DNA of 64,000 nucleotides from Heterotrichella gracilis. Its lineage: Eukaryota; Sar; Xanthophyceae; Tribonematales; Xanthonemataceae. A program made the translations under genes and the position numbers. Location of the stretch: positions 1 through 64,000 of the forward strand of contig JAULBX010025131.1 of NCBI GenBank assembly GCA_032358255.1. Reading direction: 5' to 3'. Of the stretch, positions 12,902-64,000 are shown piece after piece. Every line of letters starts with the position of its first letter. Position 1 is the first letter of the stretch. Below the pieces are notes generated by a model. It had not been told where the DNA came from. It searched no databases and was given only the letters and a program-made list of their open reading frames with translations.

Positions 12902-13911
12902 TCTTTTCAGCAGAAGGTAGAGGAGAAGGAAAGTCGAAGCTGGAGTTGCAACCCTCGACAAGGAAGCTCACGGAATGGCTCAACAGCAGCCTGGCACAGC
13001 GCACTGGGGTCTGTGTAACGCGAACCTTTGCACGCCTGTGGATCACTCTCTGCGTTCAAGAGCTGGACGAGGGCTAAGGCTGGGGCAGGGGCAGCGACAT
13101 CAACCTGATTAACTGTTCGGAACAAGACAGGTGCTGCTCTTTGAGTGCTCGAGGGTGTCGACGTTTTGCAGCCTCTTGTCCCCAAGATTTGGTCTAGAAA
13201 GTGCGCATGTGAATCCCCGTGATTGCACCAGATGCGGAACTTATCGAATCAAGAAGGTGCTGCATTGGCAAGGACGGGGATGTCATATAACCATCCCCGT
13301 TCGTTTCCCTCTATTTGTTCCTGGGGGTCCAACATGTTCAGTTCCCAAACAGCATGTGCCAGTCCCAGTGTGCTCATGGTGCAATGCCTGGCATGCCATT
13401 GCCAACGGCATCTGGCTCTCTCGCCCATTCCCCCCCACTTGATGCCTAGGACTGCAAGTGCCAATTGGGTTCCCAGCAAAACAAAATAAAGGACCAAAAA
13501 AACTTGTACGTGGCAATGTTGAGTCCCATGGCAAAAGCTCCATTCCCGCAGCTATGGTAGCAACAATACTGCTTGGCATCTCTCTCGTGGATAAATATCT
13601 GTTGAGCCAAAAATCCCACTGTGCGCACAGCAAGCAGGTGCGGTGTGCCCAGCAGCACACGATACGCTTCCTCCCCTTGCACAACGCCAACTGCCCGCTC
13701 TGAAACCCTACTGCCCCTCCCCCCCCTCCTCCACTCCCACACAGCACTCCCCCCAACCTATGCGGCGTTGACGTCTGCAATGATCTGGTCTTTAATTGAC
13801 CAGCACTGCATCCCACCAGCTCCTTGGCAGCAAAGAATCCTTGACTGAAGCCACCATTGTGGTCAAATTCACAAGTGTGGCATACCCACTGCGCTGCGCA
13901 TGAGGGCAAGA
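12902..13911. other. Spacer between SEC15 stop and the small mitochondrial gene
   Basis: About 1 kb with no gene that I can support. It should contain the 3' UTR of SEC15 and the promoter of the small mitochondrial gene. A decayed copy of the last SEC15 exon lies within it at 13759-13830 (listed separately). C-rich and CA-rich stretches are present around 13700-13745. Confidence 0.45.
13759..13830 (-). repeat. Decayed copy of the last SEC15 exon, downstream of its stop
   Basis: About 72 bases match 13915-13985, the last coding exon of SEC15, with scattered changes (for example both contain 'atgatctggtc' and 'gaccagcactgcatc'). It lies about 155 bases downstream of the original on the minus strand. 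The SEC15 stop codon comes first, so it is not translated. Confidence 0.75.
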
Positions 13912-16900
13912 TTACGCCGCATTTGCGTCGGCGATGATCTGGTCCCTTAGCTTGACCAGCACTGCATCCACCAGCTTCTTGCGCATGATTTCAGAGTGCT
14001 TCTTGGCAGTGAAGGGCACCTGCAGCATGGCGGTGCAGCTTGAGAGCACAGGGGTCTGGCCAGCACCACAAAGAGATGACAAGTCGCGAACCAAAGCGAT
14101 GCAGAGACAAACTGAAATGGTGAAGCATAGCCAGGACAAAGCGAGTGGCGCCTGCTCGTGCAAATGTTGATACTGCTAACCTGAAGTGTATGGCTGAAAT
14201 GCATGTAGTTGCTTCTTAGTTTCAAGCATTTGGCGTGGGAACTACCACCTAGGCGTGCCACAAGAGAAGCGGACCTTGGCATCCCGAGACGACTCCAACA
14301 CATGGTGTTTAAGGTTTAAATTTCACTTCAGGGATTATACTGCAGGGTGCAGGATACCTCGACAAGCCACAAGAAAAGCGCACCTTGATATCCTTGTACT
14401 TCTCCAAACACACGTAGTATTCAGAATTTAGGGTTTGAACTAGGGATTGCAATCAGGGTTTAGTGTACCTTGACATCCTTGTACTTCTCCAGCACGTATG
14501 AGAACTTGAGCACATCCAGCTTGGGGTACTTGGTGCGCCGCTTGTCTGCGTCAAGCAGGTCAGCCAGGTTGCCGAAGATGACCAGCTCGCAAAACTGCTG
14601 CATGGGCACCAGCCCGTCCGCGATGCGGGGCACGCTGTCCTGGAGCGGGTGAGGGGTGGGGTGGCGTGAGTGGCGCATGACATTAAAAAAATTGTCGGGT
14701 CTACAGTACCGATATTTTATACATTGCGTTCCATAGTCACCGCCATATTTTTATACATAAATCCCCATGGGGATTTTGCTATATGCTATTCCACAGTACA
14801 CCGCCAGCTGGATGCTCGACCATGCCATGTAGCATATCCGTGTGGGGCGGGTGGGTGTGGAAATGACGATGAACCCTATCAACCCCCGCCTGAGCTATGT
14901 GCCCAGTGTGGCCAGTGTTGGAATATCTCGGAGTGTCAGAACCTTGGGCCCTACCTGCCACTCCTGTGTGAACTTGGCCAGTGTAGCCAGGTCATTAGCC
15001 AGGCGCTGGATGGCAAAGAAGTTAATTGCGGGCAGAATGTCCGACATGAGCAGGGACAGGTGCGCATCCCCAACGTAGTTGACCACGCCTCGGGTGACGG
15101 ACGCAAATGACTCGGTGGGCAGCATCTGCTTGCCCTGGCGGAGCACCTCCTGCGCAGTGTAGGGTTTCGGGATTAGGGTTTAGCTCTTACGTGGAGTGTA
15201 GGGTTCAGCCCTGGTATGTAATTATCATGTTTTAGACTAAGATATGCAATGTGATTTGGTGATTTCATCGTTGTATAGCCATGTGACAGGGTTTTGGTAG
15301 CCGTTGCACTTCCAGGTACCTGGTGAGCTGCTGCATACTGCCTTGCCTATGCACACACTAGGTCGCACACTAACGCACAACCGCAGGCCACACCCAATGC
15401 GGGGCACCGCGCGCGTAGTTCTGTCTGCTTTACTGTACACTACAACTGTTGGCTTGTTTATTTATTTGTCTCCCCACCTCCAGGTACTTCATGAGCTGCT
15501 GCATTTGAATTGCCATCCCTTTTTGTGAAATGTAAATTAGCACAAATTAGTTTCTATTGGCTTGTTACTAACATGTCTCCCACCTCCAGGTACTTCATGA
15601 GCTGCTGCATGTATGGTGACACGTTGGCGATGCTGCGCGTGGGCTCCTCGGGCACCCAATCCATCTTCTCCGCCCCCATGATGAGCGTGTGCACCTGCGC
15701 AGCAACCACCTGCACCACCAGCGTCTCTGCCTTGTACCGCACGGTCTTCAGGGAGTTGATCACGCCTGCACGCCATGTAACAAGTTTAGATTTAGGATTA
15801 GAACCATCAACTTATTGCATCACGTAGCACGCTATGTGATGCAATCACCACTGCAAATAGAAGATTACAATGACAGATACAGTCACAGTTAAAATTAGAA
15901 GCATGATTATGTGACATGTACAATTACAAGTGATCATGCCTGCACGCCGCATGCCATGTGGAACACAGGAAACCGCTTGCCTGTGACCCACATTGATGCG
16001 CTCCAATTGTGAACACAGTCACAATGACAAATGGCAGTTCACCACACTTGCAAGTACCGAGTACCGCCACATGCCACACACGATGCAGTCCCCAAGTTGC
16101 TTCCCAACCACAACCACAACCCCTCGCCCCTGCGCACCTGTGGCCGTGGTGGTGTAAGGGCGGTGCTGCAGGTGGCCCGCCTCTGACCCGCGCCCCTTGT
16201 CATCGCCACCGGGAGCCGCGGGGCCCGCCCGCTGGACGCCGCTGCTGCTGCCGGCAGGCAGAGACTTGTCGCCCCTGCACAGGAAACAGGTTGCGCTTTA
16301 ATGGATTTGGAGTATGTGTGGGGATACTTGCGCCGAAGAGCAGGGATTTCCAGAACGTCCATAGGCGACGCGCGGCGCATATGTGCCGTATGGGGACCGC
16401 TTGCAGGCAATGCACCTACCAACCGGTGCATTCCCGCCAATAAGATCTGTGGCGGGGCAGACACAAGCCCGGCGCCGCATGCGTCTTCCTGAAATAGCGC
16501 ATGTCTACACCACTGACCCTCCCAAAAACCCACCACGCTACACCCCGCACCGCCCAACCGCGCCCACCAACCCGCCTGACTTGCATGATGGTGTACCCAT
16601 CCAGCACAGGCAGGGCAGCGATCACCGCACCCAGGTTGGCAGCCCACTGCAATCCCGCAAATAAGGCCATGGCGATGCAAACAAAAGCCTGACGCCGCAT
16701 GCGCCCCCTTGAAAATGCGCATGTTCACACCACTGACCCCGTCCAGATACCCACGCCGCACCCGCCCATCCACCCACCTGACTTGCATGATGGTGTACTC
16801 ATCCAGCGCAGGCAGGGCAGCAATCACCGCGCCCAGGTTGGCGGCCCACTGCATGGCGCGCGGCAGCGACTTGCTGGGCGCCGACCCCTCCCGCTCCACC

Positions 16901-19900
16901 CCCCGGGACAGCGCCTCCGCGATCACGCGCTGCAGCAGCCGGTCTCGGTGGTGGCGCGCCGCCGACACCATTTCCCCCGAGCTGATCAGGCCCCGCAGCC
17001 AGGCGATGGACTCGATGATGAACCTGCAGAGGGGAGGAATCTGCGTATGATGTTTGGAGGAGGGTGGGGAGCAGGGCGGCATGGTCATGCAGAGGAAGAG
17101 TGCAGCCAGGCGATGGATTTGATGTTGACCCTGTGTGGGAAGGGGCTCGGGCTTAGGGTATAGTAAGGGGTCACATGCTCATGATAGGCGTGCGAGGGGA
17201 GGAGGCGGAAACGCATGGGGAAGAGGCCACGTTGATGTCACCATCGCAGGGTTGTTAGAGGCTGAAGTTTGTGCCAGCGGGGCCAGCCCACCGCTCACCT
17301 GTGAACTTTGCTGCAGTGTCTATCGACCATGCTCTGAAAGGAGACCTTGAGCGGCAGCAGCAACAGCTGCACCCCCCTCCTTCCAGCACATCAGCGTGTG
17401 CGCAGCCACCTTTCACCCCCCATGCAACCCACACCCCATGTGCTCACAACTCAGGTGCCCCACCAGGCCCAGCCAGCTACCACACACCTGCGCACTTGCT
17501 GCAGCGTCTCCGGCACCATTGCCGAGAAGGGCGCCTGTAGGGGCAGCGCCAGCGGCTGCGGCATGCCCCCTCCCACCTGCAGCGGCAGGCCCATGCCCTC
17601 ACCCAGGTCACGCGCCTTGGCCTCGTTGCGCACCTGCAACACAGAAGACACATTGAAAGTAATGAAGAAGTTTACAATGGAATATATTTACAATGGGCCC
17701 ATGCCATTGCCCAGGTCCAGCGCCTTGCCCTCGTTGCGCACCTACAAAAAGTGTAAGTGAATAGACAGTGCGTTTATATGGATAGACTTATAAGTGTACA
17801 TGCAAATATATAGGATCACTATGGATGCATGTATCAAACGAGTAACTGTTGGCAATGAAGTATATATGGAAACTACACAGGTACCATGGACATTGACGAG
17901 TAATGAGCAATCCATTGCACTGCCGCCCATCAAACCAGCTGGCTGCCACAAAATACCCTAGGCACACACAACCCCAGGGCCTACGCCCTAGCCTCACCTC
18001 CACTGTCTGCAGGCTGTCCTTCTCAATGACACGTGGCAGGCTGACGCTGATTGTTGCAGACAGCAGGTCGTGGTACTTGGGCCGAGCCGCGATGAGCACC
18101 TCCTGAATGGGCACCACGTGGTACCCACACTGGCCTGCGAATGGTGGAGGTGGGGGCGGTCAGTGAGCATGGGTGAACATCAACTTAATCAGTCATCAGT
18201 GTAATCCATTTGCAGTTGAGTGTGGGGATATCAATGGATCCATTTGGCGAATGATGGAGTTGAGGGAGGCGCGGTCAGTGAACATTGTTGCAAATTGGAC
18301 ACATTGTTGCAGACAGCAGGTCGTGGTACTTGGGCCGGGCGCCAATCAGCACCTCCTGTATGGGCACCACGGGGTACCCACACTGGCCTGCAGGTGGTGG
18401 AGAGGGAGGGGGGGGCTGAAGAGGGGTGGGGTAAGGTCGATGTAGCTACCACAGAGCGCAAACCACGCCAGCACCACCCTGCCCCTCTCTGCTCCATCAT
18501 TACCACCAACTCCACCACCCAATTAGCGCCGCGGGTGCAGCAGTGACCCCCTCAAACACACCCTCGACCACCCACCTCGCCACCCCACCACCCCCGTCCA
18601 CCCCACCACCGCACACACCAGCAGCATGGCAGGTGCAGCAGTCACCCCTCAACCACCCCCGCCACCACCCACCTAGCGCCGCGCACACCAGGAGCATGAA
18701 GTCCTTCACCATGAGCATGGCGGGGGCAGCGGTCACCCCCTCAAAGGCGCCCTCCAGCACCCCCTTGAGTATGGCCAGGGCAGACTCCCAGCCTGAGTCA
18801 ACCCCTGTGCCCATGAAGGTAGACTGGCAGCTGCGCAGCACCCGATCCTCAACCAGGAAAAAGCATACGATCTGCGGGCCAGGAGAAAAACTTGTTACAA
18901 AAAGTACTTCTTTCTCGAACTTTCAGTCCAAATTCTAGGCATAAATTGTTGAGTGCTCGTTTTCCATTCGTCATCCTCTTGGAAATGGTAAGCGCATTTT
19001 ACCAGCCAGAAATGCCCCTTGTCACAGGGCCTCTGCCCATGAAGGTAGGCTACAGCTGCGCAGCACCCGGTCCTTTTGCCAAGAAAACGCCACAAGCTTG
19101 ATCCTAAATCCTCGCTTCTGACATTCTCAATGCCATCGCCGCTCACAGCTCTCACCTGTGAAGTGAAGCTCTCATAGGACACCAGGAAGTTGGAGGGCGG
19201 GGTCAGATCCGTGTTGAGCTGCAGCCTCCTATTTTGGGTGTAATAATCCTTGAAGCCCTCCAGTTTCCCCAAGCACTGGTGGATCTGGATGCAGCGGTAC
19301 AGGGGCTGCAGGTCCAGGCCCTCAAAGACATCCTGCACGCTGGTGGCGGGGGCCTCCTTCTTGGGGGGTGGGGTGGCGGCTTTGGTGGGTGACTCGGCCT
19401 GGGGCGCTGCGCCGTTGAGGAGGTTGTCCTGCAGGCGCTGTGCGGTGGCGCGCTTGGCTTCAGCGGCTGCGGGCAGGGGGGTGGGGGTTACTTTATGCTG
19501 TTTACCTCACCATAATGTCAGCAACGCGCACTATGTCAACCCCAATTCACCCACTCATTTCTGTATTTGATGATAGTTAAATTCATATTATTTATTGATA
19601 AGTATAATAACCGTTCGTCTTCAGTAACGGTATAAAGAATATGCGCTCATATTTGGCAGATTGATAACAAACAAACACACAAACAAAGGGCATTCCCAGC
19701 CGTCATTAGCTTATGCGCTAACCGTCCATTCTCATTTCCACTCACCCTGCGCCTTCATGGCCTCTGCAATGGTCATAGACATAGCCGATGCCATAACCTT
19801 CTTAATGACATATAAAAAATGCACTGATATTGTGCAACTCCGTGCCTGCCCATTTTCCTTTCCACTCACCCTGCGCCCTCATGGCCTCTGCAATGGTCCT

Positions 19901-22584
19901 AGACACAGCCGAAGCCTCGCTGCCCGCATCTAGCGCAGCCAGGCTCTGCTTACGCTCCCTTGCAAGCTCCTCCTCGTGGGATCGGTCCTTGGCAGCCCGG
20001 CTGACGGCGCGCATGCCCACCTGGCGCGCGTGCGAGCGCACCGTCACCTGTACAAAAACAATTTTGGCGATCAGACTTTAGGGTTTGGGCCTTCTGATGT
20101 GGGCAAGCAGCTGGCGGTGTGTATGCCCACCTGGCACGCGTGAGAGCGCATTGTCACCTGCACAGGCAGACATTCCACCCACTAGGGTTTAGGGTTTAGG
20201 CCTTCTGGAGTGTGCAATTGGTCCTTGGCGGCGTGATCACCCTTGCTCCAGGCTGAAGGTCAGCACGCGTCAAACCCTAATCCACCAACCCAACCCTTCA
20301 GAAACCTCTAGAAAACCCCAGCCAGGCCCACCAGCCAGTTGTTGAACTCCGTGATCACCCCTTGCTCTAGGCTGAAGGTCACAATCGTCAAACCCTAATC
20401 CACCAACCCAACCCTTCATAAACCCCTAGAAAACCCCAGCCAGGCCCACCAGCCAGTTGTTGAACTCCGTGATCACCCCATGCTCTAGGCTGAAGGTCAC
20501 AATCGTCAAACCCTAACCCACCACCCCTCTCCTGCAAAAACCCTAGAAAACCCCAGCCAGGCGCACCAGCCAGTTGTTGAACTCGGTGATCACCCCCTGC
20601 TCCAGGCTGAAGGTGAGCTCATCCACCCGCTTGATGAGGAACCTGCGCAGCGGCCCCAGGTTTGACAGGGTCCGCGCGCTGGAGGCCCTCCGTGCAGCGT
20701 TGGCCTCTTCGCTGGTGCCCTTCTTCTTGCTGCTCAGGCTGCATGGCAGGTAAGGGGGTATGTTCCTTCAGCAAGCAGTGATAGAACTGCGGACATGTCA
20801 TGGTGCTTCGACAAGCTTGTTTTTTTATGTATTTTATTAATAATATAATAACAACTACTGCACTTATTCCTTGATAATTACTGCTCATATGTCATATCTG
20901 AATAACATTTTGCAACTAATTAGTTTCACATAATGCTTCCTATCCTACCTTGCCCGCATGGTTGACGCGTCCGGCAGGTAGAAGTACTCCGTCCGTATGC
21001 GCTCAAGCACCTTGAAGGCCTTGTACATCTGGCGGTTGCTGATGTGCTGCGCGGCAGCGGAGCACAGGCGAAGCAGCTGGATGGCAGTGGAGATGGCCTG
21101 CATGCAGGTTGCTCTCACTTCTCGGGTACTTCCCGTGGGGTCCCAATGCTAAAATGGTGACATGTGCATGCAGGATAATCTCAATTCTCGGGTACTTCCC
21201 GTGGGGACTCAATGCCAACATGGTGAGATGTGCATGCCAACATGATCCCAATTCTCGGGTAATCCCATCGCCCCAACACCATAATGGTCAGATACGCACA
21301 CGAGCATGCATTGCTGTAATCCCTCCACCACCACCACCACCCCTTCCCAGCGCCAGGCGGAACTTCAATATAAAAAGAATAAAAATACCTAATAAATAAT
21401 AAGAAATGTTGAATACGTGCGTACCTGTTTGGAGTCGGAGAGGGCCACCTCCATTTGCATCAGCTCCAGCAGCTCCTCAAGCTTGGACAGGTAGGAGTGC
21501 CCGCCCTCTTGCAGGCTGGTGTTGGCCTCTTTCACCCGCGCGTTGAGGGCGACGGCGTACTTGCGCATGCTCACAAGCTCAGTCATGCTCTTGGCCATCT
21601 CGTCAGCATTCATCCTGCAAGGGGTGCGTGTGGTGGGTCATGTGAACCCTTGTGTGTGGTCTACGTAGCAAGGGTCTGCTGCCGGCCATATTTGCCCTAG
21701 CCAAAGGTATAATCCAGACCGCCTGTGCCAGGTAAACCCTCGCACATACCCTTGCCAGCAGATTAAAACCCTAATTACCAGCTCCGCCATGCTCTTGGCC
21801 ATCTCGCCGGCGATCATCCTGCGGGGCATGCGTGTGTGATGCGGCATGCAAGCGCATGAGGAGCCCGGGTGGTGTATGCTGTAGCCTAGGGTTTGGTGCA
21901 AGCCATCTGTGCCTGTGTAGTAAACCCTAGCACGCGCCCCTTTCCAGCAGCCAAAACCCTAGCACATACCCTTACCAGCAGGCCAACCCATAGCCCCTTG
22001 CCAGGAAGCAAGTTGTTTAAGAGTAGCACCCCACCTGCAGATGATTTCGATGTCAGTGGCCTGCTCGCTCGCGAGCTCCTGCAGCCCCTCCATGACCGTT
22101 TGGCTGAGGTCCTTGCTCGTAGTCTTGCCATAGGAGACGCTGAGGGAGGAGACGCCGTTTTCATCCGGGGCTTGCTCCTCAAACACCAGCTCGTCCCCGG
22201 TCCGCTTCTCAAACACCAGCCGCAGCTGCACAGGGGCAACAGTCAGGTCGCTAGGCAGCATAGTATGGCAGACTTGTTACACTTGCGTGCGTGCCCCAGG
22301 TACAGTGCAACCACCAACAGTGGCCACACGCCATGCAGACAATAATTCAAGCTGCAAGTGCCGCCACAATAAAAGCCCCTGCTGGGCCCCACTGACCTAC
22401 ACCAAGCTCTGTGGTACATGCTGCGCATATGACGAGTTGAAGTGCAGTTTAATAAGGCAGGAAACTGCTTGGTACTGACCAGAGGTGTGATGTCGTTGTT
22501 GTCGAGGGCTGCCTCCACCACATCCTTGATGTTCTCCTCCTCAGCAGTGTCATTGCTCCTGTTGGGCTGTGCCTCTGGCCCCAT
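13912..22584 (-). CDS. SEC15: Exocyst complex subunit SEC15
   Basis: Exocyst subunit that links Rab-GTP on secretory vesicles to the tethering complex. About 17 exons over 8.7 kb. The start at 22584 reads MGPEAQPNRSNDTAEEEN. The N-terminal coiled coil has 'MNADEMAKSMTELVSMRKY' and 'YLSKLEELLELMQMEVALSD', then 'RQMYKAFKVLERIRTEYFYL'. The middle carries the best family matches: 'LGKLEGFKDYYTQNRRLQL', 'NFLVSYESFTSQ' and 'FFLVEDRVLRSCQ'. The C-terminal Rab-binding part has 'EVLIAARPKYHDLLSATIS', 'APFSAMVPETLQQVR' and 'RAMQWAANLGAVIAALPALD', ending 'KHSEIMRKKLVDAVLVKLRD' and a TAA at 13914-13912. Nearly every larger intron holds decayed copies of its neighbouring exon edge, listed separately. Divergent from SYS1. 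Confidence 0.9.
14258..14416 (-). repeat. Two decayed copies of a SEC15 exon edge with donor site
   Basis: Segments at 14258-14306 and 14366-14416 resemble each other and the true exon end at about 14463-14500 (shared core 'ccttgtacttctcca' in the nearer copy). Degenerate TTTAGGG lies between and after them (about 14309-14330 and 14430-14463). Each copy includes the region of the 5' splice site. Confidence 0.7.
15311..15504 (-). repeat. Two extra copies of a SEC15 exon end
   Basis: Copies at 15311-15340 and 15449-15504 match the true exon end at 15557-15616. The shared core 'ggtacttcatgagctgctg' is identical in the nearer copy and the exon. The flanking intron text 'ttggcttgtt' is copied as well, so the duplication crossed the splice junction. 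Confidence 0.8.
16469..16687 (-). repeat. About 219-bp tandem copy of a SEC15 exon and its intron flank
   Basis: The unit at 16469-16687 is followed at once by the true version from 16688. The 72-base exon part (16579-16650) differs from 16781-16852 at only a handful of positions. Both copies have the intron words 'cgccgcatgcg' and 'acaccactgaccc'. A weaker third trace lies at about 16345-16468. Confidence 0.85.
17697..17743 (-). repeat. Decayed copy of a SEC15 exon start
   Basis: Matches 17589-17635 at most positions; both contain 'ctcgttgcgcacct'. It sits about 108 bases upstream in the gene's sense, next to the true acceptor of the exon ending at 17490. Confidence 0.75.
18304..18410 (-). 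repeat. Decayed copy of a SEC15 exon with its acceptor
   Basis: About 107 bases match 18050-18150, including exon text ('cagcaggtcgtggtactt') and the intron side of the acceptor ('cccacactggcctgc'). The copied region keeps an apparently usable acceptor, so mis-splicing to it is possible. Confidence 0.82.
18532..18660 (-). repeat. Two partial copies of a SEC15 exon piece
   Basis: Segments at about 18532-18575 and 18600-18660 repeat parts of 18683-18750. All three contain a form of 'gcagcggtcaccccctcaa', and the second also keeps the 'cacaccagcagcatg' part. Confidence 0.7.
19727..19795 (-). repeat. Decayed copy of a SEC15 exon end
   Basis: Matches 19850-19915 with few changes; both contain 'ccactcaccctgcgcc' and 'catggcctctgcaatggtc'. 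The donor region (cactcaccctgc, a GTGAGTG on the minus strand) is kept in both copies. Confidence 0.85.
20118..20162 (-). repeat. Copy of a SEC15 exon start joined to telomere-type sequence
   Basis: Repeats 20008-20050 ('atgcccacctggc', 'cgtcacctg'). Each copy is followed by a run with TTTAGGG (20080-20090 and 20180-20203) and then 'ccttctg', so exon edge and telomere-type tract were duplicated together. Confidence 0.8.
20232..20585 (-). repeat. Tandem array, three ~118-bp units, of a SEC15 exon end
   Basis: Units begin with 'gtgatcacc' at 20232, 20351 and 20469 (spacing 119, 118 and 117); the fourth start, at 20586, is the true exon coding 'LEQGVITEFNNWL'. Each unit has the exon end, its donor (ctg/gtgggc or similar on the minus strand), and a CAAACCCTAA telomere-like word. 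The two central units are nearly identical, so the expansion is recent. Confidence 0.92.
21099..21296. repeat. 66-bp intronic minisatellite, three copies
   Basis: Units start with 'tgcatgc' at 21099, 21165 and 21231, an exact 66-base period, sharing 'ttctcgggta' and 'aatggt'. The first unit begins at the edge of the SEC15 exon ending near 21091. Confidence 0.88.
21776..21848 (-). repeat. Decayed copy of a SEC15 exon start
   Basis: Repeats 21571-21642; both contain 'catgctcttggccatctcg' and 'atcatcctgc' or a near match. The minus-strand copy would read 'MIAGEMAKSMAELV', compared with 'MNADEMAKSMTELV' in the exon. Telomere-like CCCTAA words recur in the flanks (21728-21975). Confidence 0.85.
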
Positions 22585-24917: not shown

Positions 24918-25119
24918 GGGCATGGAACAAATCCCTGGGACTAAGCTAGCAGTTGTCAGCTGTGGCCAATTGACTCCCACTCAGCGCAGCAGTTTGACCC
25001 CATGCGCGTGGTCGCAGCACCAGGAGCGTTCGTAATGTGGGCATTCATAAGGATATCAGTGCCAATAACCACAAAAGCACCCACAGGTGGCGTGTCCCCC
25101 AAACCACCACCACCCGTAT

Positions 25120-52200: not shown

Positions 52201-55200
52201 TCATCGACTGTGCATGTTGCACGCATTTTGCAGCTTAAATACCTTGGGAGGTGGTGGGGGCTTGGGGAGTGAGGAGAGGACGGGGGGAAGGGGACATGAT
52301 GGTCAATCCAGTAGCATTGGGGACGTCATCATCTGTACATGATGCATGCTACGCACCCCACATTCCTTGGCACTTTAGCTGTGCGTGGCTTGCATCTGGC
52401 CATCCCATTACCCAAAATCTTAAATTCTAAACCCTGCCCAGGTGGTCATGTTCCTGTCCTACGCCGCCTACCACGCCCGCCTAGAAACCGCCTTTCTGGC
52501 AGACCAAATGGCATGCGTGATGGCATCAGCCAGCACCTGGGAGAGCACACCAATCCCCACCGCGCCTCGCCTGGGACCGCCACAAACCTCGCACCAGCCG
52601 GTGGGGACCGGGACGCAGCGGAGTGGGGACAATGGGGGCGCGGTTTCATCTTCCCAGCAGCAGCAAGGGGAGGAGCATATGGGGAACGGCGTGGGGATCC
52701 CCAACCATCACGTGGGGAGCAGCGGGTCGATGCCTGGGGACCGGAACCACAACGGGTCGGATCCCCACAGCGCGGCGAGCAGCCCCTGCGGCAGCGGCCC
52801 GGGGATGGCGCACCGCCCCGGCTCCACCACCAGTGCTGACGTCAGCACGATGTCCGCGCGCCAGCCGCGGGGCGTCGCCACGTCAGCGCTGACGTCAGCG
52901 CTGCACCGCGCCATGGAGGATGATGTCAGCACCACTGTTTCGGGGCGGCAGCAGCACACCAGCGTTGGGGATAAGACCTGGGACACCGTGATGGATGCGC
53001 ATGGGTCGGACGGGGATGCTGAGAAGGACAGAGGGGTGTACAGCGAAGGGGCAAGGGGAGGGTGCGAGGGGAGTAATGCGTACAGTAGCGGGAGCAGCGA
53101 CGATGATGATGATGATGCCACCTCCTATGGGGGTTTCCACGGCAGGTGCGGGGCTCAAGACCCTAGAACTTTACCCTAGCGTTGAGCCCTAAGGGTTTTC
53201 ACAAAAGTTTGCTTCCATGGCAGGTGCGCCGCCCAAACCCTGCAAGGCTAGCCTTAACCTCTTAAGGCTCTTTGCATCAAATGGCTGCTGCTTGGGGCGG
53301 GGGCACATCAAAACCCTGTAAATGGATTTTATCTCCACTGTATGCATACAGCTGCTGACGCACGGCTGCTTGCCATGTGCACAGGAGTGTGTGCCCTCAT
53401 TACTGTACACTTGATAGTATTGGTTTGCACCGTATAATACATTCGGCGTGCATTTCCTCTTTTTTTTTTTGATACCCGGCTGCTTGCCACTCATGCAAAG
53501 GCGCATGTCCCCACGCTTTTCTTTCCCTTTTTTGTATATGTATTAATACCTGGCTGTTTGCCACTTGTCGCGCAGGCGTGTGTCCCCCGAAAACATGCGC
53601 ACCAACGCAGCTGCTGAGCAGGACCCCATGTCTCTGTCTGGGGCCGAGGATGGAGGCGCAGCCGGGCACACCATGGCGCCTCCGCGGCCAACAGCCACAG
53701 GTAAAAGAATCACATATGTTTACAAAAGTACTAGATTTCTAGAAAGCGAAACGGTCAGCTGCACTGCAATGTATTAGTATCAGCACCTTGAGAAAGGCAT
53801 GCGGGTACCCATGAGTACATCTCTATTGCAATCCTAGCCCTAGCTTAACATTAGATATGGGATTTATGACCTACACCCCAACCTCAACCCTTGCAGCGCT
53901 CAATCTGGGTGGCCTCGCTTCCCGGGTGGCCACAATGGCGCACCACTCCAGCCAATAAACCGCCGAAAATGCATGAATTGTTCATGACAATTGTTCATGA
54001 TATTCTAGTGATTGCAACCCTGAGCCTAGGTTTACAAGAGCCCCTACGTTTATTTATTTCTGTAACCTTGGCCCCCACGCCAACTACCCCATTTCCACCC
54101 GTGCAGCGCTCAACCTGGACAGCCTGGCTTCCCGGGTGAGCACCATGGCGCACCACTCCAGCCAGCAGACAGCCGAGGACCGCCAGGGCGCCCCCGCCAT
54201 GTCAGCATCGGGCCACGTGACGGTGTTCCGAACGCACGCGCAGCGCGCAGCGGGGCACCGGCAGGCGGAGAGCGATGGCCGGGCGGCGGCGGCGGCGGCG
54301 GCGGAAATTGCAGGTGGGGGAAGGGGGCGTGCGCACGGCGATTGGGTCTTGCAGGGCTGGTGGTATGAAAGTGACTGATGGCTCCAGCTAGGAGTTAGGA
54401 TGAAGGGAGGAAGGCAGCACGTCAAATCCTATGGATCAGTTTCTGTGTTCCTTATTTGTGTTATCTCCTTCCTTTCGCAGCCGACCGCGCGGCCGGTGGC
54501 GGCAACGGCGCCCTCCCCGCTGCGCCCCACACGCACCACCCGCTGTTTGCCGCTCGCCTGCGGTGCGCATCCAGCGGGGCCATTTCCCTGGCTGAGACGG
54601 AGACCACTGCGGGCGAATTTGAGGGGGGCGTGTTGGGGACCGCCCTGGCGTCGAGGGTGGGCACGCCTACTGCCAGGGAAGGGGGCTGTGTGGCTGTGTA
54701 TGGCGCGCACCCCTTGCAGGTGGGTGTGGTGTGGATGTGTGGGTGTTCGTGGTGTGGGGTGGGCGGAGGGTGATTTGCAGGGATGCGTGTTTGGGTGCTG
54801 TTTGTTTAATTCCATGTATGTGGTGTTTGTGTGCAATCAATTAAATCAATTAATTACCGCCATGGGTGGTGCGGCGGGGTGTGAATGCAAGCGGGGAGAG
54901 TTGTGGAGAGGTGTGCTTTGGCAGAGGTTGTGATTTATGTTGGCTCCAGAGTTTTTTAAGGATTTTCCGCGCCCTCTGGAGCGGTCTTGATTGCTTCAAA
55001 AGCTTTGGAACCACCAAAAGCCTCAACCCCTGTCAATGGGCAGCTCTCCACACTATTCCTGCTTACCTCCCTGTTTAAGGTTTAGGGTTTACCACCCTAA
55101 ACCCTGAAGTGCCTTGTAGCGCTCTTGAGTGCCGCCAATGTCACTGATACAACCCCACTAAAAACGAGTATTTGGAGCTGGTCCGTCCTCGGTGCATTCA

Positions 55201-58200
55201 GCCAGTCCAAGCTTTGGGGTTTAGGGTTTAGGGTCACATCGGTGCGGGCGTGCGTATGGGGCAGGCGGTGGGCCATGCCTTGATGCGCCACCTCGCATCT
55301 TGATGCCAAGGCAGGGTCCACAGGGGGGCAGGCTGTGGTTGGGAGCGGTGTCGAGTGTTTAGGGTTTAGGGCTTGTATTTGGTGGTGGTAGCTGAGGCAC
55401 CGCAGGGTATATGTGAATGCCATTGGGTGGCTCACACATACTCACAACGCATCGTTTCTGTTCCCCTGCACACAGGCTGGGGGCGGGCCATACCCGGCAT
55501 CAGGCGCAACCTCACCTCGGCCGTTTTTTGCGCCCGGCTCCCCGCGCACCAGGATGCTGACTGGCGTGCCGGGATCCCCAGACGACCCCCTGTCCCTGGC
55601 AGCAAAGGAGGTGAGGCTGCTTTACTTCATCCCCTGCCTAGAGTTTACGCCCTAAACCCTAAATCCTAAACCCTGGCTGCCAAGGAGGTACACCGTGAGG
55701 ACGCTTTTTCTTGGTGCCTGCCCCCTGTTCTCTTCAGGGTTGTGCCTCTGGCATGGAATTGTGTCCCTCCAACCAATTCTCGGGACGGTATCTGTCACAT
55801 GGAGAATAGGAAATTGAGCAGGGTTAAATCCGGGTGCTTACCCTCATCTATTCCCCAGGTGATGCTGCGGGAAGGGGGTGTATCGTCAAGGAGCAGCAGC
55901 GTGTCAGAGGAGGAGAGCGCCAGCCCGCCAGGTGGCGCCCTGTGGCAGCGCATGGGGGACGAGGTGGTGCAGCGCCAGCGGCTGCAGATGTCGGTGGCGT
56001 GCAGGTGGGTGCGAGTTCCCAGCCGAGGCTTTCTGTCGGGGGTTCTCAGTCACGTTTTTGCCGCTGTTAAGTAGTGGAAAAGGTACATTTTCCGGTTGCC
56101 AACAGTGTATATCAAATTTGGTATCGTTGTTGTTTTTCTAGAAGCAAATCCAGCCCTGGTATGCTAGCCTTCGCCGCCATACCCTAAACCCTTAACCCTA
56201 AACCCTCCTCACTCGCCGCCTGAAAACCCCATCTCTCCCTCCCCTTTGCAGGAACCCCATGCGCAACCATACCCAAAACCCTAAACCCTAAACCCTTAAC
56301 CCCCTTCACTCCCCTTTGCAGGAACCCCATGCGCAACTATACCCAAAACCCTAAACCCTAAACCCTTAACCCCCTTCACTCCCCTTTGCAGGAACCCCAT
56401 GCGCAACCAGCTGTGCGAGGTGCCCAGCCTGCAGGTCATCTCATACTACAGCGACAACGACACGCCGCTCATCGACCACATACGCAAGCTGGCAGCCGAG
56501 GCGCACCGCAAGTGCCCAAATGCAGGCAAGTTGAAAATTCTGAACCGTAAACCCTAAACCCTCAACATGCCACTCATTGACCACATGCGCGAGCTGACAG
56601 CAGAAGTGCTTCTTGAGTGCCCCAACGCAGGAAAGTAAAAAAACTGTAACTACCCTGCATCCTAATTTCATTGCCCTATCCTAGCCCTTGTATATCACGT
56701 GCCTTTCCAATCTCAGACTGAGGCCTCCCAAATATCACTTTATGAATTTGTCTCTATTGATTTTCCTCCCTTGCCCCAACCCTGTAAGTAATTAAGTAAA
56801 TCATGGTCATCGTTTCCTCCCAGATTGCGGCGAGCCCGCCTCCCAGCACCTGCGCACCTACCTGCACGGCCACGGGCGGGTCACCTTCTCCTCGCACCAG
56901 CTGCCCCGAGAGGGCGAGCTGCCGGGCGCAGACAAGGGCCTGGTGTGGATGTGGGTGCGGCCCACGAAATGCGGTACCGCGGCGGTGCGGGCCGCGCGTC
57001 GCCTGGCGCTGTGTGAGGAGGCGGCTTGCCTGTCGTTTGGGCATTTCATGGAGCTCATGTTTGGGGGGCTGCACATGGAGTTTGGGGGCAGGTAGGGGAG
57101 GGGAAGTGGATGAATAGTGCGGGGATGGGCCTGCATGAGCAAGCCTGACCGCTTACTGTATTGCCCAAAGTATGTGACTGCACAGGTAGTGGACAGGCAC
57201 CATTGGGAGTTGGTGGGCGCAGGGTCATCTCCCTTTTCTAGCGCCCCATGTCTGAACCAATGTACCTGTCAAGGGCAGGCTGCATACCCATTGATTACCT
57301 GATGAATTGGAGGATTTAATCATGTACTATTTTTGGGCGCAGGTCGCTGCGCACTGGCTTTGTGCGCTACTTTGGCATCGGCGCCACCCTTATGTGCGTG
57401 CACCTGGAGCCTGTGAGACCCTACGGGGTGCACCTGCCACCGCCCAGCGTGCTGCACTCACCAGGGAGCGAGAGGGCGTGGCTACAGGAGGAGATCCAGG
57501 AGCTGTCGCAGGTGAGGAAACACCTTAGCTAAAACCCTGGACTAGGGTTTTGGAGGGGTAGTTGAATTAGAGCGTGGGGGCAGGAGAAGATCTTGGAGCT
57601 GTGGGAGGGAAAACCCTAACTTGAATCATACAGTAGATATTTTACTATTTTACAAAGTGATGGATCAAGGCGTCGCTCATCGCATCAAGGCCTGCATGAT
57701 TTGTGCATGGTGTCACTGAATTGTTTATTCTATCATCCCAGGAGGCCAACCTTGCCCTTGACCACATCGAGGCCGCCCTGCACGACTACGCGGTGGCGCT
57801 GCAGCGCGCGCAGGGCGGTCAGCTGAGTGAGGACGCCTGGCGCCACGTCAGCGACCTGCTCACGCGCGTCAACAGCGAGCGAGCGGACTTCAACGACGCG
57901 CTGGCGGCCATCGCGGCGCAGCTGGGCAACCCCGCCAGCTTCTCGTCAAGTGCGTAGGGTACAGGGTGTGGTGTGGTGGTTGGTGTACATGTAGGTGTTA
58001 TGTAACCTGCCCACGCAAGGACCTAGGGAGCGGGCACCGTACCCCATTATTGCCACGCTCACTTTGCAGTCCGGGATGAGGGAATATTGCATAGAGATTT
58101 ATGTATATTGTTCTCCAATTTCCCGCAGATCACTCCCAGGATAGCTACCACTCCTCCTCCTCCGACGAGGAGGAGCGCCAGGAGGCCCCGGGGCCAGAGG

Positions 58201-61200: not shown

Positions 61201-64000
61201 CAAATGCGCTCATTGCGACCAGGAAGATAGGGAGTTCCAAAGCACATGCAGGATTTATGAGCTTGCTCACATGCATTTTCACATGCAGGGTGTAGGGGTG
61301 TTTACTTACATGCATTTTCACGTGCAGGGCGTGAGCAACGCCAGCAACTACCTGTCGCACTTTGAGGACTGGCAGCAGTTTGTGGCGGAGATGGGTGCAG
61401 AGGCACCCGACCCACGCCAGCCAGTGCCGCCACTTGGCGCACAGCAGTGGCCCGAGGAGGGCGGAGCCACAGCCCAAACCCTGTTCAAGGGGACAGGCAC
61501 AGCCCAATCCTCGCCCAAGGCGGCCGCGGCCCACACCCCTTTCAAGGGCACCGGCACAGCTCAGAATTCACCAAAGGGCGCAGGCGCAGCCGAAACCTCG
61601 TCCAGGGGCGCAGGCGCAGCCCAAACCCCCTCCGAGCCGGTGCCGAGAAGGCCAGGCACAGCCCAAACCTTGTCCGGCTCCGGCTCCCCGGCCACCGCTG
61701 CGGCTGCGCCAGGTGGCGCTGTTGCAGCCGAACCAGCGCCAGCTGGCGTGTCTGCGACCCCTCCTCTCCCCCCTGCGGTCCCAGCACCCGCCCTCCCCGT
61801 TTCTGAGACGCGACCGCTCCCCAAGCCCCAGGCCCCCCGCCGCAAGGGGGGCGAGCTCCAGCGGGGGACCATCCCCCTTGCAGCGCACCAGGTGGTCATC
61901 AGTGGGCGCTCGCTGCTGCCCACGGGGGTGAATGACCTCATCTCCACGGTGTATGACGAGGAGCCCACCTCGCTCATCGCGCACTTTCTGGCAACCAGGT
62001 ACGCGCGCTGCGTTGATTGTGTAGCATTATAGCAGGGAGCTTGTGTCCCTGCTAGCAAGCATGTTGCCAGGGTCTTGCGGATGCTCCCAAGGGAGTTAGT
62101 TAGTCAGTTACATGCACTACAGCAATACAGCCAGATTAGCAGCCAGTCTTACCAAGGTTTGGCGCAAAATCCTCAATCCTGAACCTTAATCCCCTATTGG
62201 CCCAGGGGCGCCACCGCCACCATCCTGTACTCTCTGCGCAAAACCCTAATCTGTAAACCCTAAACCCTAGCTTCCCCACTGGCCCAGGGAGTACCAGCAG
62301 TACATCAGGGACGCCATCGCCACCATCCTGTACGGCGCGGCGCGCCCCGCCCCACCCCCGCAACCCACCAAGAGCGGCTTCTTCTCCTCAAACAAGGTCA
62401 CAGTCTCAACCTTTGCAGCTGCCGAGGCGGCGGTGGCGGACACCCACAGCCTCCCCCCCTCATGGCACAGCCCCGAGGCGCCAGAAGGGGGGCGAGTGGG
62501 TGGTGGGGGTGCTCGTGCCGCGCCGGGGGATGGCGCGGCGTCGAGCGCGGGCGGTGGGGATGACGCGGCGTCGAGCGCGGTCCTGCCAGTCAGCGGGGAC
62601 AGCGGCAGGAAGGTGCGGGCAATGCGAAATTTTAACAATGGTAGTTTTTTGGCCTTGTCACAATATGCTTATGTGCTTTGTAACACACCATTATCATCTG
62701 CCGCGGATATGTTATAATATGCATGATTGGAGATGTACATGCAATTGACTCCTGTGTAGGGTTCCAGATGGGGGTTGTAGTCACTTCCTTGTTTATAAAC
62801 TCATAACTGAACTACACTGCAGGGTGTGCGGGATGTGTTTGCCCTGGGCGAGCTGGACCTGGCTGGCCTGCACGTGGAGCACACCGACTGGCGCCTGCTG
62901 CTGTGTGACGAAGCGCACCACTTTGAGCACACCATCCGCGACGAGTGCCCCGGACCGCCCTTTGGCAGCGCGAGGTTCCAGGTGCGAAACCCTACACCCC
63001 TAGCTTCTTGGCATGTATTTACCCTAACTGCCCCAGCCGCATTTGTGCCGGAACACAAATCCAGGAAATCAGCACAAGCTTCTACAGATATTGCGCACCT
63101 GTGGTGATCCCTCAATTTATCATAATTCATCTTCAAATTTTGCTAGTCTGCTTGCACCTTGGTACCTGTTGTGACAGAACCCTGTGCCTCCTTCACAGGT
63201 GACTGCGTACTACGCGCCCCAGTTTGCCGAGCTGCGCAAGCGGTGCGTGAGCGGGGGCGAGATTGCCTACCTGGCCAGCCTCAGCAGGTGCCGCAAGTGG
63301 GCATCCAGGGGGGGGAAGTCAAGCGCATACTTTGCAAAGACGCGCGATGACAGGTGCGGCCTTGCACTGTGCAGTAGTCTGTTTGAATATCAAGCCAACC
63401 AATCCCAGTCTAAAGTACTCGGATTGTTGCATGTGTTTGAGCTGCAGAGGCAGATTAGCAGTATGCGCCGTGCGTCTCCCGGCGCCAGCCACCCCTCAGA
63501 TGGATTTCCCTGCCTCAGGGGCACCGTCAAGGCAGCTTCAAACCCTGAATGTGTTTTTACCCCTGCCCAGGTACATCGTGAAGCAGCTGTCTAAGACTGA
63601 GAAGCAGTCCTTCCTTGAGTTTGCGCCTGCCTACTTCCGGTGTCTGGCCAACGTGCTGTCCAAGGGGCAGGAGACGTGCCTGGCCAAGGTGGTGGGGGTG
63701 TACCAGGTGAGGAGGGGAGCAAAAGGAAAAGCAATTTTTTATGCTTATTGAAAGTAAAATAGAATGCATGTATAAATATCAGGAGACGTGCCTGGCCAAG
63801 GTGGTGGGGGTGTACCAGGTGAGGAGGGGATGGTGTAGTAAATACAGTTGTGTTTAATTGCATTTACATTGCAACTTGTAAAGGATTGGGAACCGTGCCT
63901 GGCGAGTGGGAAAAGACCATCATGACGTCATCAATTTATTGAGGGACATCAGAAGCTGTAATAAAGCAATAGAGTGGGTGGCTTTGGCCATGTATGTCTC
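49208..64000 (+). CDS. FAB1: Fab1/PIKfyve-type phosphatidylinositol-3-phosphate 5-kinase, FYVE-less, 3' end outside window
   Basis: Makes PI(3,5)P2 on endosomes and vacuoles. The proposed start MEQQQPQGHFPSGSAAPA is followed by exons 49881-49961 and 50158-50445, all joining in phase 0, with no FYVE domain. A TCP-1-like chaperonin domain follows: 'YYIK' then 'VGHPDHSCVISGVACRKNVA', 'KMRSCVVSPRILLLANSLDY', 'RPLLERLARCMGVPIVPSVE', 'LMMFKGCPNKLGMTVLLRGA'. After a long low-complexity exon (52440-53143) comes the Cys/His-rich CCR region: 'LQVISYYSDNDTPLIDHIRK', 'TYLHGHGRVTFSSHQLP', 'GLVWMWVRPTKCG', 'LRTGFVRYFGIGATLMC'. The lipid-kinase domain starts near 61970 ('VNDLISTVYDEEPTSLIAHF') and has 'GGKSSAYFAKTRDDR', 'YIVKQLSKTEKQSFLEFAPA' and 'LAKVVGVYQ' before the window ends. 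The catalytic DLK and IID parts lie outside. Confidence 0.9.
49432..49660 (+). repeat. Copies of the first Fab1 exon end
   Basis: 49432-49485 repeats 49298-49347, including the donor ('ccaggggtcaatccaggtca' in both). A more decayed third copy is visible at about 49560-49655, where the donor GT has been lost. CCCTAAA words lie between the first two (about 49389-49400). Confidence 0.85.
50640..50800 (+). repeat. About 190-bp tandem intron unit carrying a Fab1 acceptor and exon start
   Basis: The unit begins 'gcaggacc' after CCCTAAA at 50640 and again after CCTAAACCCTAAA at 50833; that word itself copies the exon end at 50431. It closes with 35 identical bases of acceptor plus exon start (50765-50799 and 50981-51015, containing 'aggtgaagcgcatccccaac'). 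The upstream copy is a ready decoy exon start. Confidence 0.92.
51935..52080 (+). other. G-run intron, possible G-quadruplexes
   Basis: Starting at a GTGAGA donor near 51930, the intron carries many GGG to GGGGGGG runs on the sense strand within about 140 bases, enough for several four-run quadruplexes in the transcript. A tandem copy lies farther on in the same intron (52160-52230 against about 52285-52350, sharing 'gatggtca' and 'ggggac'). Confidence 0.7.
52834..52902. repeat. Two perfect palindromes around TGACGTCA inside a Fab1 exon
   Basis: 'tgctgacgtcagca' at 52834-52847 and 'agcgctgacgtcagcgct' at 52885-52902 are perfect palindromes sharing the 12-base core 'gctgacgtcagc', 51 bases apart. 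The core TGACGTCA is a classical bZIP/CRE site. They lie in the low-complexity Ser/Ala-rich linker, where the encoded residues are probably not constrained. Confidence 0.8.
53350..53575 (+). repeat. Decayed copies of a Fab1 acceptor region
   Basis: Words of the form 'cggctgcttgcca' followed by 'aggcgtgtgtcccc' or a near match occur at about 53350-53395, 53472-53510 and, as the true acceptor and exon start, 53548-53590. Each copy is followed by a T-rich stretch. Confidence 0.65.
53895..53965 (+). repeat. Decayed copy of the Fab1 exon starting at about 54107
   Basis: 'gcagcgctcaa', 'ctggcttcccggg' or 'ctcgcttcccggg', and 'atggcgcaccactccagcca' appear in the same order at 53895-53965 and 54104-54172. 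The copy has an in-frame stop where the exon continues, so only the downstream acceptor gives a functional protein. Confidence 0.88.
55078..55106. repeat. Inverted interstitial telomere-type repeat
   Basis: 'aggtttagggttt' is followed at once by 'accaccctaaaccctg': TTTAGGG units facing CCCTAAA units, which can form a hairpin. The order is the one expected at a head-to-head telomere join, but only about two units are present on each side, inside a Fab1 intron. Confidence 0.8.
55211..55376. repeat. Interstitial TTTAGGG tracts
   Basis: Two tracts of two to three telomere-type units (about 55211-55231 and 55358-55373) within a Fab1 intron. Similar short tracts occur at about 722-735, 15161-15182, 20183-20203, 30863-30880, 39300-39317, 46663-46682, 49990-50010, 50815-50832, 55650-55676, 59348-59362 and 62250-62270. 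Confidence 0.85.
56178..56391 (+). repeat. 70-bp tandem units of telomere-type tract plus exon start
   Basis: 'cccctttgcaggaaccccat' occurs at 56240, 56311 and 56381 (spacing 71 and 70). Each of the first two copies is followed by CCCTAAACCCTAAACCC and 'ttaaccccc'. The third is the real acceptor, with the exon beginning at 56392 and coding 'NPMRNQLCEVPSLQ'. All three acceptors look usable; the first two exon copies run into the telomere-type tract. Confidence 0.95.
56565..56640 (+). repeat. Decayed copy of a Fab1 exon end, joined by a telomere-type tract
   Basis: Repeats 56457-56535 ('atcgaccacatacgc' against 'attgaccacatgcgc', then 'gcaggcaagt' against 'gcaggaaagt'). The junction between exon and copy is 'ccgtaaaccctaaaccctc'. 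Confidence 0.92.
57577..57612 (+). repeat. Decayed copy of a Fab1 exon end
   Basis: 'caggagaagatcttggagctgt' resembles the true exon end at 57485-57510 ('gaggagatccaggagctgt'). Telomere-like 'ctagggttttgg' lies just before the copy. Confidence 0.6.
59838..59950 (+). repeat. Acceptor-side copy before a Fab1 exon
   Basis: 'tacggccgcccacac' at about 59842 resembles the exon start 'tatgggcgcccgcat' at 59932. The match is short but in the same position relative to the acceptor as the other copies. Confidence 0.45.
61258..61339 (+). repeat. Tandem acceptor copies, 40-bp period
   Basis: 'acatgcattttcac', one or two bases, then 'tgcaggg' is present at about 61268-61291 and 61308-61330. The second is the true acceptor, with the exon reading 'GVSNASNYLSHFEDW'. 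The upstream one would give a different frame. A donor-side pair also exists at 61062-61120 and 61130-61185. Confidence 0.85.
61465..61680 (+). repeat. Coding minisatellite in the Fab1 linker
   Basis: About 30-base units code degenerate ten-residue repeats such as 'GTAQSSPKAA', 'GTAQNSPKGA', 'GAAETSSRGA' and 'GAAQTPSEPV'. It lies just upstream of the lipid-kinase domain and is probably disordered, with Ser/Thr-Pro sites that could be phosphorylated. Confidence 0.85.
62195..62246 (+). repeat. Decayed copy of a Fab1 exon start, joined by a telomere-type tract
   Basis: 'ggcccaggg' and 'cgccaccgccaccatcctgt' at 62200-62230 repeat the true acceptor and exon at 62281-62335 ('ggcccaggg', 'cgccatcgccaccatcctgt'). 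Between the copies is 'ctgtaaaccctaaaccctag' (62252-62271). Confidence 0.92.
63780..63829 (+). repeat. Near-perfect copy of a Fab1 exon end with its donor
   Basis: Almost 50 bases are identical to 63668-63717, covering the exon end coding 'LAKVVGVYQ' and the GTGAGG donor. The lack of changes marks it as one of the youngest copies in the window. A short further trace ('accgtgcctggcgag') lies at 63891. Confidence 0.93.

Follow-up and report, generated by a model that had tools for sequence, protein, structure and literature searches.

Genes and exon-edge copies in the window

The window, the whole stretch of DNA analysed here, spans bases 1-64000 of a contig 67,359 bases long, from an assembly of 68.5 Mb and 903 contigs. 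Judged by its proteins, it is from a green alga: the best matches of its cysteine synthase gene were green-algal, for example Micractinium (78%), Chlorella vulgaris (77%) and Tetradesmus (74%), with a top identity of 79% among the 120 matches listed. Four genes are considered below, namely SEC15, a HAD-like gene, the cysteine synthase gene and Fab1; the names HAD-like and Fab1 come from an earlier sequence-only reading of this DNA and are putative. The SEC15 model, in which one exon was corrected by hand, was verified via Pfam alone (Sec15_C, E 2e-35; EXOC6_Sec15_N, E 7.1e-23), and a homologue search with it returned 0 matches. The truncated HAD-like model (350 aa) matched no Pfam family at 1e-3. 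The cysteine synthase gene was the one ab initio model checked against homologues, and its six internal exon joins (33801-36013) were gap-free in the alignment with seven algal proteins. The window also holds a COP9 signalosome CSN7-like gene at 305-1539 on the minus strand (Pfam CSN7_HB_subdom, E 1.8e-11).

The sequence-only reading had counted more than 25 places in these four genes where an exon edge was copied into the adjoining intron. Alignment at score ≥15 on hand-edited models bore this out, with 32 copies in 23 of 55 introns: 16 in SEC15 (10/15 introns), 3 in the HAD-like gene (2/5), 4 in the cysteine synthase gene (3/7) and 9 in Fab1 (8/28). Two of the 32 (18531-18573 and 18616-18648) are doubtful, lying within GGTGGTGG-rich sequence. 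In editing, weak extra exons were dropped, 6 of 17 predicted exons were kept for the HAD-like gene, the final two exons of cysteine synthase and, from 63960 on, the final one of Fab1 were placed by eye, and one Fab1 exon was split by hand. The features are as follows.

13759..13840, minus: copy of the SEC15 coding end in the 3' flank (aligned at about 13772-13826, score 30 against the last exon; the rest by eye)
13921..22584, minus: SEC15 gene, 16 exons after hand correction, 938 aa (ab initio model and Pfam)
14382..14406, minus: copy of the SEC15 exon edge at about 14468-14469, 96%
Near 14258-14310, minus: third, older copy of the same SEC15 edge, by eye
15473..15504, minus: copy of the exon edge at 15583, 32/32; second copy at 15307-15336
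16570..16651, minus: 82-bp copy of the exon edge at 16777, 93%
17102..17133, minus: copy of the exon edge at 17023, 88%
17696..17747, minus: copy of the exon edge at 17633, 87%
18303..18391, minus: 89-bp copy of the exon edge at 18134, 92%
19030..19074, minus: 89% copy of a coding segment lying 22-68 nt within the exon that starts at 18871
19738..19792, minus: copy of the exon edge at 19869, 93%
20110..20164, minus: copy of the exon edge at 20047, 84%
20232..20614, minus: 118-bp tandem array of 3.3 copies, exon edge plus intron start at 20566 (Tandem Repeats Finder)
20442-20497, 20324-20379 and 20233-20264, minus: single copies within the 20566 array (edge alignment)
21777..21822, minus: copy of the exon edge at 21614, 85%
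29884-29946 and 29975-30014, minus: HAD-like gene, two copies of the exon edge at 30137 (edge alignment)
31222..31283, minus: HAD-like gene, copy of the exon edge at 31138, 79%
33802..33936, plus: cysteine synthase gene, AT-rich 135-bp intron with an in-register 14-bp flanking repeat TTCCTGAACCCAGG (TTCCTGAACCCAG/G), score 14
34114..34175, plus: cysteine synthase gene, copy of the exon edge at 34294, 79%
34498..34550, plus: 75% copy of a coding segment that lies 19-74 nt upstream of the donor at 34469
35212-35264 and 35386-35417, plus: two copies of the exon edge at 35551 (edge alignment)
49434..49480, plus: copy of the exon edge at 49336, 96%, the spacer with telomere-type sequence
50762..50798, plus: copy of the exon edge at 50986, 37/37
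53889..53966, plus: copy of the exon edge at 54107, 83%
56239..56409, plus: 70-bp tandem array of 2.4 copies, 98%, comprising telomere motifs, acceptor and the first 18 nt of exon 56392
56565..56636, plus: copy of the exon edge at 56525, 76%
57569..57608, plus: weak copy of the exon edge at 57511, 78%, score 17.5
62203..62230, plus: copy of coding sequence 18-46 nt inside exon 62288, telomere motifs adjoining (edge alignment)
63780..63826, plus: copy of the exon edge at 63706, 47/47

The two extremes picked out in the sequence-only reading were both recovered: the near-identical copy at 63780 matches its edge over the full 47 bases, and the barely visible one at 14258 is the third SEC15 copy seen by eye. 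The copy at 13759, where the range given in that reading begins, is likewise real; it follows the SEC15 stop codon and so does not represent a splice junction.

Sampled stretches and gene models

The sample consisted of the window and 29 stretches fetched from the same assembly, of which 27 eukaryotic stretches (317,359 bases including the window) were used. A repeat of the window (L001) and three bacterial stretches were left out of the intron counts. The latter come from three apparently bacterial contigs (C1, C100 and C180) with GC of 0.35-0.37 and long open frames covering 69-93%; C1 measures 894 kb in this algal assembly. Stretches L022-L030 look eukaryotic by their GC of 0.51-0.59, which was checked after counting. 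Genes were predicted ab initio with a finder of our own, for which long open frames and self-trained splice sites served as training material; it called 50 genes with 393 introns. We kept 307 introns of 60-1200 bp with strong exons on both sides, including 25 in which a weak internal exon had been merged into the intron. The study covers the DNA sequence of one genome.

Exon-edge copies are frequent, directional and specific to their own intron

Exon edges, each made up of the splice core and 80 nt of exon, were aligned to their own introns with a threshold score of ≥18. The results showed a same-strand copy of an adjoining exon edge in 61 of the 307 predicted introns across the 27 stretches, at 29/307 donors and 36/307 acceptors. 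None was found at this threshold when the edges were set against other introns (0/1,535 per side), the reverse complement (0/307 per side) or shuffled introns (0/921 per side). The sequence-only reading had proposed such a comparison with control pairings, and the excess that it anticipated is thus present against every control, as is the pairing of each intron with its own neighbour. The overall rate was 19.9% (13.0-24.7% by bootstrap over the 27 stretches). Copies occurred in 40 of 231 introns and 17 of 26 stretches outside the window, confirming that the phenomenon reaches beyond it.

A search independent of annotation gave the same picture of direction. At score ≥20, 73 forward and 3 inverted matches were obtained in 254 kb, three bacterial stretches included, and 0 after shuffling, in agreement with the earlier statement that the copies run in the direction of the gene. 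The three bacterial stretches of the same assembly (30 kb) contributed 0 forward matches, and copy identity ranged from 100% down to 72%, in line with the earlier remark that copies run from near-identical to barely visible. Together, these two observations disfavour a general assembly artefact, which the sequence-only reading had named as a possible error.

A BLAST search among the 307 introns gave 42 matches; among the best 25 of these 42, two of the top three lay within one stretch, and many involved the telomere-bearing array intron at 56005-56391. One 59-bp match (81%) linked introns of L015 and L019, which are on different contigs. Filler sequence copied from elsewhere was considered for two non-telomeric fillers, and neither had a second place in the 68.5 Mb assembly.

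Structure of the duplication events

Fifty of 65 edge events extended to the splice site, and the exon part of the repeats varied from 15 to 140 bp. At first the copied unit seemed to end sharply within a few bases of entering the intron; this impression was weakened, since gapped extension found homology onward in 25 of 50 cases (about 2 by chance) and the intron part should also decay about twice as fast.

The spacers of 49 junction events were compared with the flank beyond the copy, and 23 showed homology at z>4. Homology covered at least 80% of the spacer, as for a whole tandem unit, in 7 of the 49, for example the 217-bp unit at 50986 (179/181 spacer bases reached, with telomere motifs in the unit), the 202-bp unit at 16777 (119/120 spacer bases reached) and the 118-bp array at 20566. 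It was partial in 16 more. The remaining 26 spacers had no homology at z>4, 5 of them scoring z 3-4, and plain tandem duplication is therefore unproven for these 26. In L011 the pair is identical over 65/65 bases, yet its 72-bp spacer is unrelated. The local part of the earlier proposal of local tandem duplication thus stands (same strand, own intron), and its tandem part holds for a share of the events: simple tandem duplication explains part of them, and extra joint sequence is likely in others.

Pure tandem junction events exist, such as a 42-bp unit in L021 and the 70-bp unit at 56239. With a spacer of ≤8 bp taken as pure tandem, such cases numbered 4/16 in introns, 8/31 in unannotated DNA and 0/46 between exon and intron, a count from which repeats bearing a telomere 9-mer, pure tandem ones included, had been dropped.

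The sequence-only reading had mentioned tandem duplication as a proposed source of introns, a role that found hardly any support. An in-register match of donor and acceptor flanks at zero offset occurred in 1 of 307 introns (33802-33936, score 14), a candidate for a recent intron gain by its flanking repeat. At score ≥18, donor and acceptor flanks matched in 4/307 introns, 0 of them in register. Intron gain as the main outcome was accordingly rejected.

Copies derive from coding edges and decay as non-coding DNA

We profiled where 30-bp windows match their own intron. Matches were found for 8-10% of windows whose centre was the junction or lay 15 nt inside the exon, for 6-10% of those 30 nt inside and for 0-1.8% of those 80-130 nt inside. 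On the intron side the frequency was 0.9-2.5% at +15 to +100 and climbed again to 4.7-5.4% at +160, perhaps through copy-to-copy matches.

Splice junctions are copied, as had been claimed, and they are not the sole source. A copy within 320 bp downstream was found for 6 of 32 stop-codon edges (0 in reverse complement), and the SEC15 end at 13759, missed by the gene finder, is a further case beyond these six. The duplication process is therefore not splice-specific, and splice-specific copying, for instance RNA-templated, was set aside. No start edge was copied upstream (0/27), reflecting either selection against an extra ATG or poor start models.

Copies of exon sequence might merely stay visible for longer. 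In a simulation, exon-derived copies had a 1.6-fold longer visible life. With divergence limits matched for age, target sizes taken from our own estimate and events treated as independent, duplications crossing an edge were 7.1- to 13.6-fold commoner per target than those in intron interiors. Exon-intron against intron-intron counts in six settings were 16/9, 25/20, 16/7, 25/17, 12/8 and 19/15, with p from 1.1e-6 to 1.0e-10; these settings supersede a narrower count that had given 9-10-fold. Tolerance alone thus fails to account for the edge bias, the visibility ratio being only 1.6 against a 7-14-fold excess, a bias that the sequence-only reading had missed. Repeats in introns had higher GC than random segments (0.570 against 0.506, p 0.005, n=16), as did those in unannotated DNA (0.595 against 0.511, 0/2,000 draws, n=31). 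This would fit a preference for coding-like DNA, to which unannotated exons could contribute.

Exon and copy mismatched at frequencies of 0.109, 0.094 and 0.173 at codon positions 1, 2 and 3 (about 1,010 sites each), which is the pattern expected if the copy changes freely and the exon mainly at synonymous sites. The coding constraint that functional tandem exons would keep at positions 1 and 2 is absent from these values, and the copies decay neutrally, as non-coding DNA. Repeats between exons were spaced by a multiple of three bases in 7 of 9 cases. Both observations fit the earlier suggestion that copies are tolerated as long as one splice pair works.

Telomere repeats lie beside splice sites and at the copies

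An association with telomere repeats had also escaped the sequence-only reading. The telomere unit of this genome is TTTAGGG: long arrays in the CCCTAAA sense begin contigs C70, C140, C526, C609, C717 and C770, and a reversed control pattern of the unit gave 0 matches. The same unit is described as ancestral to green algae in the accessible part of PMC8226300. The 317 kb contained 617 telomere 10-mers, while none of 19 alternative units with identical composition exceeded 14; the density of telomere 10-mers per 10 kb was 45.4 in introns, 11.5 in other DNA and 0.7 in exons. Telomere 9-mers formed 129 arrays in 88 of the 307 introns.

These arrays crowd towards splice sites. Forty-six of the 129 start within 40 bp of a donor (about 16 expected), in both orientations. 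Arrays ending 10-40 bp before an acceptor numbered 21 in the CCCTAAA sense (about 8 expected) and 3 in the TTTAGGG sense (about 4 expected), two of the latter in a duplicated intron pair. This bias on the acceptor side may reflect selection against AG and for CTAA-type branch points; CCCTAAA could serve there as branch point or pyrimidine tract, or simply avoid AG. Some donors in introns of L007, L013 and L025 seem to be built of telomere sequence, for example GTAAACCCTAAACCC and GTAGGGTTTAGGG.

The arrays are linked with the duplications. A telomere 10-mer was present in 19 of 33 introns with an ungapped copy crossing the junction, against 52 of 274 others (Fisher p 6e-6). Introns with no junction event showed a donor-side telomere excess too (14.5 against 3.7 per kb). 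With the motifs masked, direct repeats flanked telomere arrays near junctions in 30/77 cases (5.9% at control points), in intron interiors in 10/47 (2.7%) and in unannotated DNA in 10/43 (2.3%). Of the 65 events, 22 had a telomere 7-mer no more than 25 bp from the new joint of the copy, and 15 had one on the opposite side of the copy; the corresponding share of random windows was 10.5% for the introns concerned and 4.8% for introns overall. Telomere 8-mers were found in 22 of 45 exon-intron spacers (5.0 expected) and in 6 of 23 spacers of unannotated pairs (1.4 expected), with a small excess in intron-intron spacers (3/12, 1.6 expected). Only one of six stop-edge spacers held a telomere 7-mer.

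Among the 49 junction events, the 8-mer occurred in the spacer and beyond in 16, in the spacer only in 11 and beyond only in 1; in 21 there was none in spacer or flank. Motif orientation was unbiased, 11 forward and 15 reverse at the left copy and 9 and 13 at the right, so that the G-strand does not consistently point away from each broken end. This argues against telomerase simply extending both broken 3' ends, a model we therefore did not retain. A search for shared non-telomeric sequence at the tracts, such as a telomerase RNA flank, yielded only degenerate telomere units and no clear motif.

Origin of the copies

We consider it probable that the copies arose as short local duplications through break or replication repair, often at telomere tracts, and survived only where the protein stayed intact. 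Each event would place a second, same-strand copy of a stretch of about 40-220 bp next to the original, and some would add further sequence at the joint. Coding DNA would be struck far more often than intron interior, or its hits would more often be seen. A hit inside an exon would be lost unless it was in frame, and one across a splice junction or stop codon would do no harm, since an intact copy remains available and the spare sits in the intron or 3' flank. One copy would be spliced and the other ignored; the spare would then mutate freely, giving copies of all ages. Tracts of TTTAGGG/CCCTAAA, mostly beside splice sites, would take part in many events, either as a fragile site of breakage or stalling or as repair filler placed in the joint.

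How the tracts come into play can be read in more than one way. It is possible, and we hold it tentatively, that the telomere repair machinery itself is at work: telomerase or captured telomeric DNA would add TTTAGGG at staggered breaks, and CST-Pol alpha fill-in would duplicate the overhang on both sides. Such a process would leave direct repeats around telomere tracts, as found in three contexts, and a telomere motif at the new joint; it would also suit the preponderance of spacer-only motifs (11 events against 1 beyond only). Mammalian precedents exist in the accessible parts of two studies, one in which CST-Pol alpha fill-in makes small tandem duplications (PMC8355091) and one on telomeric insertions at breaks with occasional flank duplication (PMC2246262). 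The lack of orientation bias is at odds with it, as are the 16/49 events with the motif in spacer and beyond, as if pre-existing, and the 21/49 with no motif.

We give similarly tentative weight to the tracts having come first, fixed near splice sites because tolerated or useful and then acting as fragile points where replication slippage duplicates the adjoining exon edge. The peaks of tracts within 40 bp of donors and of CCCTAAA 10-40 bp before acceptors are consistent with this order, as is the donor-side excess in introns that have no junction event, and the tandem units at 50986, 56392 and 20566 contain the motif. Interstitial telomeric tracts are unstable in the yeast and mammalian tests covered by the accessible text of PMC6410037. 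This account leaves the placement of telomere sequence beside splice sites unexplained, and the 21/49 events with no motif weigh on it as well.

A more ambitious version, which we regard as speculative and rather doubtful, would make the machinery of telomere ends, in the form of telomerase, CST-Pol alpha fill-in or both, a main engine of intron growth in this lineage as it acts on breaks in transcribed coding DNA. Each event would leave a tract at the splice site and a spare exon edge, and the telomere repeats would then double as branch-point or pyrimidine signals before acceptors.

It is unlikely that the copies are ordinary, genome-wide small tandem duplications, seen at edges only because selection holds the exon copy, with the telomere motifs a side issue. 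The pure tandem cases in introns (4/16) and unannotated DNA (8/31) agree with this, but a simulated 1.6-fold advantage in visibility falls short of a 7-14-fold age-matched excess, the telomere coupling is strong, and 0/46 exon-intron pairs were pure tandem, though some pure tandem repeats with a telomere 9-mer had been dropped there. We think it very improbable that the copies function as decoy, alternative or regulatory splice junctions under selection; a few are 100% identical where the intron part of their unit has diverged, as at 50986 (37/37), but codon positions 1 and 2 differ alike at about 10% and the copies are of many ages. A mobile or introner-like element can be practically dismissed, as the sequence-only reading had done: the direct repeats around the insert resemble target-site duplications, but their exon part varies from 15 to 140 bp, both fillers tested occur once in the assembly, edges gave 0/1,535 cross-matches per side and among the best 25 of the 42 BLAST matches between introns, two of the top three were within one stretch and many involved the telomere-bearing array intron.

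Comparison with known systems

Local duplication and interstitial telomeric insertion are both known; what is unusual here is their frequency, position and coupling. Intron gain by tandem duplication reportedly goes by the name of the Rogers model. In the accessible part of Lehmann et al. (2010, PMC2891723), an exon piece containing an AG/GY site becomes duplicated in tandem and so gives a new intron; the gains are few in Drosophila, and their duplicates are no longer backed by sequence conservation. The likeness lies in a local tandem duplication across coding sequence with one copy left in the intron. The difference is that the introns here pre-existed, the copy lies inside the intron and has a splice core of its own, and the in-register signature of gain is confined to 1/307.

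Small tandem duplications are also said to have been described in rice by Vaughn and Bennetzen in 2014. Those treated by Schimmel et al. (2021, PMC8355091, accessible in part) arise from fill-in of staggered breaks. Such duplications are direct, short and adjacent and are ascribed to nearby nicks with fill-in, and the copies here share their same orientation and closeness (73 forward against 3 inverted; reverse complement 0/307). They differ in the strong coding-edge bias, the tie to telomere sequence and the many spacers with no detected homology. In the accessible part of Nergadze et al. (2007, PMC2246262), short interstitial telomeric sequences are inserted at breaks, with flank duplication at 4.6% of rodent and 16% of primate loci. 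The present tracts resemble these as short telomere-unit tracts at internal sites, some with flanking duplications; they consist of the species' exact telomere unit, and flanking direct repeats accompany 21-39% of arrays, a figure from a different kind of test. In contrast to the mammalian insertions, they crowd beside splice sites.

In introner elements, direct repeats lie beside intronic inserts; here no shared element was seen between introns by edge cross-match, BLAST or the two fillers. In tandem exon duplication, which gives mutually exclusive exons, exon sequence is repeated in the next intron. The accessible part of PMC9013439 deals with that process, whereas the copies here are of edges and decay without coding constraint. 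Further related work appears in PMC3488318 and PMC12636532, each accessible in part. Among the titles and abstracts listed in searches of the openly licensed literature, no account was found of frequent exon-edge copies in the introns of a green alga, nor of telomere tracts beside its splice sites.

Consequences and further observations

With about 1 in 5 introns carrying decaying exon-edge copies, this genome keeps a readable record of intron growth. As a rule, intron growth and gain lie too far back to be read, and here the duplications can be dated and their source sequence is known. Rates, breakpoints and ages therefore become measurable within one genome. The coupling of telomere repeats to splice sites joins break repair at telomere-like tracts with intron evolution and allows a clear comparative test. 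There is also a warning for annotation, as the ab initio finder called copied edges extra exons, for example in SEC15 and, at 63783, in Fab1.

Two further repeats were observed. The Fab1 coding exons contain in-frame repeats 30 nt apart at 61576-61633 and 62526-62580 of the window. A tandem array on the minus strand of L019 comprises exon and intron, with two 78-bp introns about 95% alike and a 42-nt exon edge common to both.
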